This document shows, piece by piece, positions 36,759-57,267 of a stretch of 64,000 bases of DNA. The stretch covers positions 124,001-188,000 of the forward strand of contig NZ_JAQBOF010000019.1 in the NCBI RefSeq assembly GCF_028288185.1, read 5' to 3'. The stretch is from Mucilaginibacter sp. (lineage in GTDB: Bacteria; Bacteroidota; Bacteroidia; Sphingobacteriales; Sphingobacteriaceae). A program made the position numbers and the translations under genes. Each line of letters opens with the position of its first letter. Within the stretch, counting starts at the first letter, position 1. The notes beneath the pieces are model-generated. The model did not search any database and had not been told where the DNA came from. It saw only the letters and a list, made by a program, of their open reading frames with translations.

Positions 36759-37157
36759 TCAGGCGAGTGGTGGTCGGAGTATTTTTTTATGAAATTCTGA
36801 TATCGTTTTCGAAACATAAATATCCTGATAGGTAACCCGATATTCGTTAACAATAACAGTATTAAGTTGTGGGGGAATAATTATAGCACTGCAAACTCCC
36901 GCAGTATGTTGAAATTGAATACCCGATCCGGAATTTTGCGGAGCATCTCCTTTATTATGCCCTAAAATATCTTTACCGCCTAAAAGGTAATCGCCAATAA
37001 AATCCAACGCTCCTTTTTCATCTTGCGACACCAGTTTTTCATAAGAATGATACATAGTGGGCAAGTCGCTCATGAGCGAAAAATCGCCAAGAGGAAAAAT
37101 TACATTCCCGGCTAAAAAATAAATACAGAGGATATATACCGCTATTTTTTTGAACAT
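36759..37157 (-). CDS. Small exported protein upstream of a TonB receptor, unknown function
   Basis: 132 aa with an N-terminal hydrophobic segment (IAVYILCIYFLAGNVIFPLG) that can be a signal peptide or anchor. The next part reads DFSLMSDLPTMYHSYEK, followed by a Gly/Gln/His-containing middle and a single Cys near residue 90. I do not recognise a family. It is 85 nt upstream of, and co-directional with, the TonB-dependent receptor gene, so a shared function in uptake is plausible. It starts about 50 nt past the terminator hairpin of the tRNA-like unit. Confidence 0.65.
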   Translation of the reverse strand: MFKKIAVYILCIYFLAGNVIFPLGDFSLMSDLPTMYHSYEKLVSQDEKGALDFIGDYLLGGKDILGHNKGDAPQNSGSGIQFQHTAGVCSAIIIPPQLNTVIVNEYRVTYQDIYVSKTISEFHKKILRPPLA

Positions 37158-37209
37158 TCTGAGTGTAAAAGTATGATTATTTTAGTGTTTACAAAAAGGT
37201 ATAAAACAA

Positions 37210-37239
37210 GTAAAGCCCCTGATGGGCAGGGGCCTTTAC
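37210..37239 (-). terminator. Intrinsic terminator of the tRNA-like RNA pair
   Basis: GTAAAG-CCCCTG and CAGGGG-(C)-CTTTAC arms with a 5-nt loop make a 12-bp stem with one bulge. On the minus strand it is followed by TTGTTTTATA. It lies 33 nt beyond the second tRNA-like RNA and before the start of the next minus-strand gene. Confidence 0.8.
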
Positions 37240-37271
37240 TAACCAATTATAAACCTAAATTATGAGAAGAG

Positions 37272-37386
37272 CTGTAGGAGAAGGAGTCGAACCTCCACAG
37301 AGTGGTTATTCTTATTGCTAAGAGTTTCCCATGATCTCCGCCACCGCGACGAGGAGGTGTGTCTGCCAAAATTTCACCATCCTACA
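37272..37386 (-). ncRNA. tRNA-like RNA, second copy of a tandem pair (long structured variable arm)
   Basis: 115 nt including a G discriminator; no CCA is encoded. The acceptor stem is a perfect 7 bp (TGTAGGA/TCCTACA). A GTG/CAC D-stem has a Leu-type loop (AAATTTTGGCAGA) that keeps the GG pair. The T-arm is GGAGG-TTCGACT-CCTTC with the normal 7-nt loop. If the Leu template is followed, the anticodon stem is CCTCC/GGTGG with a central T-T mismatch and the loop is TCGTCGC (C at position 33, triplet GTC). The variable region is 44 nt and contains AGA/TCT, TGG/CCA and TCTTA-GCAA-TAAGA helices. It is far longer than in normal class II tRNA and I do not recognise it. Decoding is doubtful; charging is possible. 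Confidence 0.7.
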
Positions 37387-37418
37387 ATATTTATTAATTA
37401 ATTCACGCCAGTGAATTG

Positions 37419-37530
37419 CTGTTGGGGAAGGATTCGAACCTCCACAGAGTAGTTAGCCCGCTTCGGGTTTCCTATGGTCTCTACCACCGGGACAAGGAGG
37501 TGTGTCTGCCAAAAATTTCACCACCCAACA
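37419..37530 (-). ncRNA. tRNA-like RNA, first copy of a tandem pair (long structured variable arm)
   Basis: 112 nt including a G discriminator; no CCA is encoded. Acceptor stem TGTTGGG/CCCAACA (7 bp), GTG/CAC D-stem with AAATTTTTGGCAGA loop, T-arm GGAGG-TTCGAAT-CCTTC. Relative to the second copy, two acceptor pairs differ and both changes are compensated (A-T to T-A, A-T to G-C). The variable region is 40 nt with TAG/CTA in place of TGG/CCA and CCCG-AAG-CGGG in place of TCTTA-GCAA-TAAGA. The anticodon-like loop is TTGTCCC on the same T-T mismatched stem. A small AATTCAC/GTGAATT hairpin (37400-37417) separates the two copies. A promoter lies upstream at 37589-37620. Confidence 0.7.
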
Positions 37531-37588
37531 TTATGTGATGTTATTTATTTTAAAGAACGATTAAGCTTTTAGGTCCAATTGCTTGTTA

Positions 37589-37620
37589 CAAACATAACAG
37601 ACTTAGCAATTCCTTGCAAA
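37589..37620 (-). promoter_or_regulatory. Bacteroidota-type promoter for the tRNA-like pair
   Basis: On the minus strand, TTTG (37620-37617) is followed after 20 nt by TATGTTTG (37596-37589), a full match to the primary sigma consensus TTTG-N19/20-TAnnTTTG known from Bacteroides and Flavobacterium. Transcription would start near 37582, about 50 nt ahead of the first tRNA-like RNA. Confidence 0.65.
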
Positions 37621-37693
37621 TATTTCAACAAAAATATTTTATTTTTATTCAAATTATAATTATACTTGTATTTCAATAAAGATATTCAAATTT

Positions 37694-38170
37694 ATGTCCC
37701 ACAGAAAAGCTCAAAATTTAGAAATTGATAATCTGGATATTCAGATTTTATCAATATTGATGAAAAACGCCACTACCCCCTACACGGAAATCGCTAAAGA
37801 ATTGATCGTTTCCGGCGGAACAATACACGTGCGGATGAAAAAGTTGGAAGAAATGGGTGTAATTAAAGGTGCCAGTTTAGAGGTCGACCCACAAAAACTG
37901 GGTTATGACATTACCGCGTTCCTGGGTATATTTTTAGAGAAAGGCTCGCAGTATAATGATGCCGTTAAACAGCTAAAAACCGTTAAGGAGATAGTTGAAC
38001 TGCATTATACAACGGGCAGCTATAGCATTTTCGCTAAAATTATTTGCCATGATACCACCCACTTGCGCGAGGTATTGAACGAGCAGATACAAGGCGTAAA
38101 AGGCATACAACGTACAGAAACATTTATATCGCTTGAAGAAAGCATCAGGAGACAGATAACTTTGGAGTAA
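37694..38170 (+). CDS. Lrp/AsnC family transcriptional regulator
   Basis: 158 aa. N-terminal helix-turn-helix at about residues 13-62 (NLDIQILSILMKNATTPYTE and GGTIHVRMKKLEEMGVIKG), then the RAM/AsnC ligand-binding alpha-beta domain with FLGIFLEKG and the YSIFAKIICHD strand pair. Members form octamers and respond to amino acids or related small molecules. It is divergent from the tRNA-like unit, with 163 bp between them that hold the latter's promoter, so it may regulate that unit; this is inference. Confidence 0.92.
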   Translation: MSHRKAQNLEIDNLDIQILSILMKNATTPYTEIAKELIVSGGTIHVRMKKLEEMGVIKGASLEVDPQKLGYDITAFLGIFLEKGSQYNDAVKQLKTVKEIVELHYTTGSYSIFAKIICHDTTHLREVLNEQIQGVKGIQRTETFISLEESIRRQITLE

Positions 38171-55599: not shown

Positions 55600-57267
55600 T
55601 CAGGGGGTAGGGGGGCTTTTCCAGCCGTCCTTCAACGTCACTGTTCTGTTAAATACCAGCTTATCAGCAGTCGAATATTTATCCAGCGTAAAATAACCTT
55701 TACGCATAAACTGTACAGGCTTGCCTGGTGTGGCATTGGCCAGATCAGGTTCAATGTAGGCTGTAGGCAGTATCTGCAAACTGTTGGGGTTCAGGTAATC
55801 CTTAAAATCACCATCTTCATTCTGTGGATTTTCCACCTGGAACAGGCGATCGTACAACCTTACTTCGGCAGTTTTGGCATGTGGTACGCTTATCCAGTGA
55901 ATGGTTCCTTTTACGTTGATACCACTAGTGTCATGGCCAGATTTTGACTCAGGCAGATAGCTGCAGTGGATCTCGGTGATGTTGCCATCTGCATCCTTCA
56001 CAAAATCATCGCATTTAATGATATAGGCATTCTTTAAACGTACCATCAGCCCTACACCCAGGCGGAAAAATTTCTTGGGCGGAACTTCCATAAAGTCTTC
56101 ACGTTCTATCCACAGCTCGCGGCTAAACGGAAACTCACGGCTTCCATCTCCGCCTTCAACCTCAGGGTTGTTTTCGCCATGCATAATTTCGGTTTCACCT
56201 TCGGGATAATTGGTTAGGATGCATTTTATAGGGTCGAGCACCGCCATACGGCGCCAGGCTGTTTTGTTCAGATCCTCGCGGATACAGAATTCCAGCAAAC
56301 CAACGTCGATCATATTTTCGCGTTTGGCCACGCCGATGCGTTCGCAAAATTCACGGATAGAGGCAGGCGTATAACCACGGCGGCGTAAACCACTGATAGT
56401 AGGCATCCGCGGATCGTCCCAGCCTTCTACATGACCTTCGGTAACCAGTTGCAGCAGCTTGCGCTTGCTCATTACGGTATAGTTCAGGTTAAGGCGCGCA
56501 AACTCATATTGTTTTGACGGGAATAGCTCCAATTGCTCAATAAACCAATCATACAAAGCACGGTGGGGTATAAATTCCAGCGTACAGATGGAATGGGTGA
56601 TTTGCTCAATAGCGTCTGATTGGCCGTGGGCAAAATCATACATCGGGTAAATGCACCACTTATCGCCGGTACGGTGATGGTGGGCATGTTTAATGCGGTA
56701 CATTAATGGGTCGCGCAGGTGCATGTTTGGTGCGGCAAGGTCAACCTTGGCGCGCAATACTTTAGCGCCATCGGGATATTTGCCAGCTTTCATATCGGCA
56801 AATAGTTGCAGGTTTTCTTCAACCGAGCGACTGCGATATTGGTTTGGTGTGCCGGGTTCTGTAGGCGTGCCTTTTTGCGCGGCTATCTCTTCGGCAGAAC
56901 TATCATCAACATAGGCTAGTCCTTTTTTGATGAGGGCAACAGCAAATTCATATATCTGGTCAAAATAATCAGAAGCGTACAATTCATTGGCCCATTCAAA
57001 ACCAAGCCATTTTACATCATCCTTAATGCTGTCAACGTACTCAGTTTCTTCTTTGGTGGGGTTTGTGTCGTCAAAACGCAAATTGGTTTTGCCGTTATAT
57101 TTTTGTGCCAACCCGAAGTTTAAGCAAATAGATTTGGCATGCCCAATATGCAGATAGCCATTTGGCTCGGGCGGAAAACGGGTTAATACCCTGCCACCGT
57201 TTTTACCGGCAGCTATATCTTCTTCAACAATTTCCTCTAAAAAGTTCAGTGATCTTTCTTCGCTCAT
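55600..57267 (-). CDS. glnS: Glutamine--tRNA ligase
   Basis: 555 aa from the ATG at 57267; the frame extends 26 codons upstream into repeat-like DNA. Class I synthetase that charges tRNA-Gln directly. HIGH motif in [12 protein letters not shown] (about residue 45) and KMSKS-type motif in [10 protein letters not shown] (about 275). The anticodon-binding beta-barrel domains follow. The C-terminal residues (KSPPTP) and the stop codon lie in a C-rich palindromic repeat shared with 55146 and 55496. Confidence 0.95.

Follow-up and report, generated by a model that had tools for sequence, protein, structure and literature searches.

The synthesis of asparagine on a tRNA has been described in bacteria that also possess both AsnRS and GlnRS (PMC4206432). 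In a survey published in 2014, 18 out of 547 genera, some of them belonging to the Bacteroidetes, harbored AsnRS, GlnRS, and GatCAB and no asparagine synthetase, and the synthesis of asparagine on tRNA-Asn was thought to be possible in such genera (PMC4206432). As regards the bases involved, aspartate identity has been assigned to G73, G34, U35, C36, and C38, with G2-C71 as a minor element and G1-C72 strictly conserved, while U1-A72 is given as the amidation signal and G1-C72 and U20a as antideterminants (PMC9976931). In E. coli, the regulator AsnC is reported to activate asnA, and to do so less in the presence of asparagine (PMC8707732).

The locus described in this work belongs to a window of 64,000 nucleotides, i.e., the whole stretch of Mucilaginibacter sp. 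DNA that was analyzed, and comprises two copies of a tRNA-like RNA that is carried by many Bacteroidota and has no Rfam family of its own.

The Locus and the Fold of the RNA

The two copies are located on the minus strand, at the positions that the original prediction had assigned to them: 37419-37530 (copy A, 112 nt to position 73, the CCA end not being encoded; 126.6 bits with the covariance model) and 37272-37386 (copy B, 115 nt; 127.5 bits). As had also been proposed, the pair is flanked by a promoter and a terminator. The Bacteroidetes-type promoter TTTG-N20-TATGTTTG (37620-37589, minus strand) exhibits a pattern that was found in all the 23 genus loci scanned, and an intrinsic terminator, recognized by eye, lies 3' of copy B (37240-37201, minus strand), several other genomes having a similar downstream sequence. 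The leader contains the sequence GTTCTTT (37552-37558, minus strand; by eye), which we take to be BoxA-like and which precedes many homologues too. A gene coding for an AsnC-type regulator of 158 aa (37694-38170, plus strand), resembling the NCBIfam AsnC family, is oriented divergently from the RNA unit.

The cloverleaf consists of an acceptor stem of 7 bp, a D stem of 3 bp, an anticodon stem of 5 bp, a two-stem variable arm, and a T stem of 5 bp. The features from which the likeness to tRNA had been deduced were recovered, that is, the 7-bp acceptor stem with compensated differences between the two copies at pairs 4 and 7, the Leu-like D arm and the TTCGAnT T loop in both copies, and the enlarged variable regions, of 40 nt in copy A (37444-37483, minus strand) and 44 nt in copy B (37297-37340, minus strand). 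In each of them an outer stem is followed by an inner stem, a GAA...UAA internal loop, and a terminal hairpin. Both of the coordinated swaps that had been noticed are there: the inner stem is TAG/CTA in copy A and TGG/CCA in copy B, and the hairpin is CCCG/CGGG in the former and TCTTA-GCAA-TAAGA (hence TCTTA/TAAGA) in the latter. The U-U mismatch of the anticodon stem is also present in both copies, but it proved to be typical of the genus and its close relatives only, with a C-G pair in many other families.

Across 65 copies, the variable region ranges from 37 to 122 nt, and its terminal part may be anything between a small hairpin and a large insert. The internal loop recurs in the form RAN...YAA in 51 of the 65, and we assume that it resembles the UAA/GAN motif. 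A UUGACCAC block, which might be contacted by a protein or in a tertiary interaction, is embedded in 21 of the 65 copies, always with a variable region of at least 67 nt (e.g., L074:1479-1653, L104, and L100).

The structure of the RNA rests on comparison, because the folding of the single copies gave no support, being no better than that of shuffled sequence (z 0.30 and -0.43). In an alignment of 65 copies (63 of which distinct, two weak hits, L124 and L125, being left out) that was fitted to the model, 18 out of 28 base pairs showed changes on both sides; each of the six helices was supported, and double changes occurred at every one of the acceptor pairs 3-7. In this fitted alignment, 97.7% of the cells were paired, slid structures pairing 51-61%, and double-change cells numbered 217 versus 57 in shuffles. 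An unfitted alignment of 58 distinct full-length copies (56 from the genus and two from genome G037, identical copies being counted once and three incomplete or deviant rows removed) revealed both-side changes in six pairs, a result equalled by 6 of 500 shuffles; the count of further pair types in the same alignment was reached by 83 of 500 shuffles. Thus, the homologues with covariation whose absence was to count against the original prediction do exist.

A further idea was dropped. The sequence ACACCTCCTTG (37492-37502, minus strand), found in the genus, presumably resembles the 3' end of 16S rRNA, and the ACCTCC of this region could pair with the GGAGGT of the T arm within the RNA; both the likeness and the pairing were set aside, the sequence having been lost or changed in the majority of the other families.

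Relation to tRNA Models and Distribution

ARAGORN called no tRNA in the window, and the Rfam check that had been proposed for the locus gave no match in the window with cmscan at the gathering threshold and, even with the limit relaxed to E<=10, no hit to a tRNA within 37150-37700. When the own genome was searched with RF00005, copy A attained 30.1 bits against a cut-off of 29. It thus matches the tRNA model marginally, the two copies lying at the very edge of that model, and ten homologous loci matched no Rfam 15 family at gathering. It follows that a known ordinary tRNA class, which was the other observation expected to speak against the prediction, did not emerge as a clear match, although copy A does reach RF00005 marginally. 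The RNA has neither the leucine anticodon nor the variable arm of normal size of a tRNA-Leu, and its variable region of 37-122 nt is not the short loop of class I. All the rows fit 7 acceptor and 5 T-stem pairs, in an alignment that was fitted to such a structure, and not the extended acceptor and T stems (8/4, 9/3, 13 bp); the T stem of two rows contains an additional base. In the same genome there is an ordinary tRNA-Asp, which has G1-C72, A37, and the loop CUGUCAC.

A DNA search of 60 genomes, the own one included, found the RNA in 36 of the 37 genomes of the same genus, the missing genome being 71% complete, and gave a match in 2 of the 23 genomes outside it. Types A and B form separate groups and are usually in tandem, type B being located elsewhere in four genomes. 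With the covariance model, which was built from the 58 aligned copies, the RNA was found in 50 of the 295 genomes of the class among the matches listed, which go down to about 7e-10; weaker copies beyond these could be missed in the genomes that we call RNA-negative. RNA-positive genomes were defined by the long length class of the matches (at least 104 nt, 55.9 to 133.8 bits). The class search also listed a shorter class of matches, of 80-86 nt and none above 62.4 bits, which we regard as ordinary class II tRNAs. Length was used as the divider because two long matches score under the best short ones. The 104-nt match of one genome (G264) became 195 nt long, with 97.1 bits, on a renewed search. 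A second model, run with permissive filters on 40 of the 245 RNA-negative genomes, yielded, among the matches listed, hits that were all of 72-91 nt. Finally, a 23-base pattern was found in at least 119 stretches of a genome contig collection; among the matches listed, 80 out of 80 stretches were Bacteroidota by title, including Chitinophaga, Algoriphagus, Cyclobacterium, Belliella, Segetibacter, Marivirga, and Portibacter. No paper on the RNA was found among the open-licence papers listed, as judged by titles and abstract starts in a collection covering few subscription journals.

Identity Bases and Associated Genes

The anticodon loop is UUGUCCC in copy A (37489-37495, minus strand), with GUC at 34-36 followed by C37 and C38, and UCGUCGC in copy B (37346-37352, minus strand), with C33, GUC, G37, and C38, so that the lack of U33 noticed earlier in one copy concerns the latter. 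In the 65 rows, GUC and C38 are each found in 64, and G73, G2-C71, and U1-A72 in all of them, the G1-C72 of the tRNA-Asp type being absent. The 58-row alignment has GUC and C38 throughout (58/58), and a set of 55 hits including the weakest has GUC in 52, C38 in 52, and U1-A72, G2-C71, and G73 in 55 each. The deviating copies are L109 (CUC), L120 (A38), L124 (UUC and A38), and L125, which is devoid of most of the loop. In the 65 rows, the D loop is GGCAG, GGCAA, or GGUAG, with no U20a; the own tRNA-Asn, which has U1-A72, and the own tRNA-Asp both have GGUUA, hence U20a (in the numbering used here). The RNA joins an aspartate identity set to the amidation signal and is free of U20a. Against a charging with aspartate stands the fact that G1-C72, used by the AspRS of E. 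coli, is lacking in this RNA. We also inspected AspRS at a site where Leu or His matters for Asp/Asn specificity. The own enzyme has Leu there, as have those of E. coli and T. thermophilus (1eqr, 1efw), and the Asp/Asn enzyme of P. aeruginosa (4wj3) has His. Over the 15 genomes compared, the residue is Leu, Lys, Phe, or Met (Leu, Lys, or Phe in the other RNA-positive ones) and does not separate RNA-positive from RNA-negative genomes, so that it is weak evidence.

U33 and a purine at position 37 are nearly universal among decoding tRNAs. In the 65 rows, position 33 is U in 50, G in 9, and C in 6 (not U in 15), and position 37 is U in 44, G in 12, C in 8, and A in 1 (a pyrimidine in 52). One or the other feature is lost in 56 of the 65 copies, in agreement with the doubt already cast on normal decoding; both are kept in 9 of the 65 and, in the genus-level alignment, in 22 of the 58, and the loops of those nine copies do not by themselves bar decoding. 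The view that the RNA is charged or bound like a tRNA and used outside translation finds support in the aspartate identity set and in the cloverleaf shared by many families. We consider such a use likely rather than proven, since charging is a step that we infer and since nine copies keep both loop features.

GatB (TIGR00133) was found in all the 50 RNA-positive genomes. It was also found in 177 of the 245 RNA-negative ones at E<=0.001 and in 166 over the cut-off, and because of the latter the presence of GatCAB does not imply that of the RNA. Since bacteria lacking GlnRS depend on GatCAB to make Gln-tRNA, the informative set is represented by the genomes harboring GlnRS (101 with a match, 100 over the cut-off). 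Of these 101, 26 have GatB over the cut-off and the RNA, 8 GatB without the RNA, none the RNA without GatB, and 67 neither, these counts being uncorrected for kinship and seven of the 67 having weak GatB matches under the cut-off; the corresponding numbers by family are 8, 1, 0, and 28. Three families only (f1, f2, and f36) hold both states, and in them the RNA and GatB are always in step. The eight exceptions with GatB and without the RNA (G047, G092, G129, and others) are confined to a single family, f12, whose GatB is divergent (E about 1e-105). AsnRS was over the cut-off in 78 of the 80 genomes tested (50 RNA-positive and 30 RNA-negative), and the matches of the other two, G139 (RNA-positive) and G067 (RNA-negative), were weak only and probably represent AspRS. 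The AsnRS sample covers 42 of the 101 GlnRS genomes, and AsnRS was over the cut-off in each of the 26 that have both GatB and the RNA; as these 26 possess GlnRS and AsnRS, neither Gln-tRNA nor Asn-tRNA should require GatCAB in them. As for GlnRS itself, the own genome carries two full genes (55621-57189 of the window, minus strand, and G000:C22:16980-18554), and G276 is the only other genome with two GlnRS matches, the second of which is partial.

The asparagine synthetase genes were surveyed in the same 80 genomes. The asnA gene was found in 1 of the 50 RNA-positive versus 5 of the 30 RNA-negative genomes (one just under the cut-off). The sole RNA-positive genome with asnA (G224) is the one whose RNA has the anticodon CUC (L109), and within the own family two genomes (G076 and G291) have asnA and are devoid of both GatB and the RNA. 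No AsnC gene was found within the fetched 3 kb of asnA in the six genomes with an asnA match, so that no site was seen at which the RNA directly takes the place of asnA. Besides asnA and the CUC copy, the genome G224 has a short AsnRS-like frame, 346 aa long (G224:C2:595933-596853, L109:2072-2186). Another genome of the same genus (G094), which also has asnA, carries a 76-nt gene (L246:1500-1576; G094:C23:55338-55413) to which the second model gave 68.5 bits and which ARAGORN called tRNA-Asp(atc).

The asnB family was over the cut-off in 71 of the 80 genomes, 46 of the 50 RNA-positive ones included, and its presence does not separate the two groups within this sample. The best asnB-family gene was placed by eye in a capsule/polysaccharide locus in each of four RNA-positive genomes of the own family (G000, G004, G266, and G116), and the other two matches per inspected genome were taken for putative glutaminase domains of other enzymes; the inspection covering these four loci, a housekeeping AsnB may still be present in RNA-positive genomes. 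No asnB was over the cut-off in four RNA-positive genomes (G037, G196, G277, and G324), the first of which had neither asnA nor asnB over the cut-off, and in five RNA-negative ones (G112, G226, G278, G303, and G068, the last having asnA). Three of the latter (G226, G278, and G303) have GatB, no AsnA, no AsnB over the cut-off, and no RNA that we could find; they represent a gap in the argument, because GatB occurs there without the RNA or a known synthetase.

The product of the divergent gene scored 178.9 bits with the NCBIfam AsnC family, under its cut-off of 227, the next family giving 86.8; its best PDB match is the E. coli AsnC (2cg4), and it shares 47% identity with E. coli AsnC over 149 aa. 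The gene is located divergently beside copy A in all the 36 genus loci with flank, and an AsnC gene (38-75% identity) stands beside 28 of the 45 loci of other genera or families. The remaining 17 have no AsnC in the fetched flank, one of them ending at a contig edge, and the loci without AsnC exhibit no common flanking gene by eye. Among the seven neighbours of the window that were tested, AsnC alone recurs past the closest relatives. The divergent arrangement is like that of asnC and asnA in E. coli.

Possible Function and Comparison with Known Systems

The reading that we favor, and that we regard as fairly probable, is that the RNA is a dedicated acceptor on which aspartate would be loaded by AspRS and converted into asparagine by GatCAB under the control of AsnC, that is, a form of tRNA-dependent asparagine synthesis. 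The scheme that we infer comprises charging, amidation, exclusion from the ribosome, release of asparagine, and AsnC control. AspRS would read the GUC anticodon, C38, G73, and G2-C71 and put aspartate onto the RNA; GatCAB would see U1-A72 and amidate the bound aspartate to asparagine; the long structured variable arm, together with the anticodon loop that is altered in most copies, would bar the product from translation; asparagine would then be freed or handed on; and the divergent AsnC-type regulator would tune the synthesis of the RNA to the asparagine supply. The loss of decoding features with the aspartate identity kept would make sense because an Asn-RNA entering translation would put asparagine at Asp codons, and a separate carrier with the Asp anticodon would dispense with the need for a relaxed AspRS. 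As for the broader idea that this Bacteroidota family is a dedicated non-decoding cofactor for asparagine, belonging to a module that can replace asparagine synthetase, we believe it only a little more than we doubt it.

The same identity and GatB evidence would also agree with an RNA that is charged and amidated and whose asparagine or aspartate is passed to the cell wall, a lipid, or a peptide instead of becoming free asparagine, similar to the way in which certain tRNA-Gly species supply the bridges of peptidoglycan; the asnB family being over the cut-off in 46 of the 50 RNA-positive genomes is in its favor too. However, AsnC is the only recurring one of the seven neighbours, the loci without it share no gene by eye, and asnA is rare in RNA-positive genomes, so we deem this handing-over unlikely. 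The large variable arm with its recurring internal loop (51/65) and UUGACCAC block (21/65), as well as the adjacency of AsnC, might suggest a regulatory or scaffold RNA binding AspRS, GatCAB, or AsnC, e.g., a sensor of Asp/Asn charging and not a carrier. This appears decidedly improbable to us, in that the fixed G73, U1-A72, and G2-C71 suggest an acceptor end in use. It is very hard to believe that the RNA is an ordinary decoding tRNA for aspartate with an odd arm: the GUC anticodon, the nine copies of 65 keeping U33 and a purine at 37, and the score of copy A just above the Rfam tRNA cut-off would fit, but a canonical tRNA-Asp is present in the genome, U33 or the purine at 37 is missing in 56 of the 65 copies, the genus has the anticodon-stem mismatch, U1-A72 takes the place of G1-C72, and ARAGORN rejects the RNA. 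Lastly, decayed tRNA-Leu genes, which the Leu-like D arm might recall, can practically be dismissed in view of the presence of the RNA in 36 of the 37 genus genomes, of the 217 double-change cells versus 57 in shuffles, and of the conserved promoter.

If the dedicated-acceptor reading is true, it bears on the puzzle, raised in PMC4206432, of GatCAB occurring beside AsnRS and GlnRS without asparagine synthetase. A new RNA family would be added to a large bacterial phylum, and metabolic annotation would be affected, such genomes being otherwise called asparagine auxotrophs. To our knowledge, it would also be the first non-decoding RNA devoted to making a standard amino acid.

Among known systems, the Bacillus cereus tRNA-Other and the staphylococcal cell-wall tRNA-Gly are tRNA-like RNAs that serve, or are expressed, outside ordinary decoding; they concern different amino acids, and we know of no link between them and GatCAB or AsnC. 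The allo-tRNAs and tRNA-Sec are likewise unusual tRNAs with long variable arms (PMC7609411), but they have extended arms, whereas the RNA described here has 7 acceptor and 5 T-stem pairs and a variable region of 37-122 nt. In the asnC-asnA pair of E. coli, a divergent AsnC gene likewise stands beside an asparagine-making unit, the partner here being an RNA and not an enzyme gene. The asparagine synthesis based on tRNA-Asn in Deinococcus, Thermus, and Bdellovibrio has the same predicted chemistry, with GatCAB acting via U1-A72 (PMC4206432). In those bacteria, however, the carrier is the decoding tRNA-Asn, with the anticodon GUU, and AspRS is non-discriminating, whereas here a separate RNA, with GUC in 64 of 65 copies, could be charged by a discriminating AspRS.
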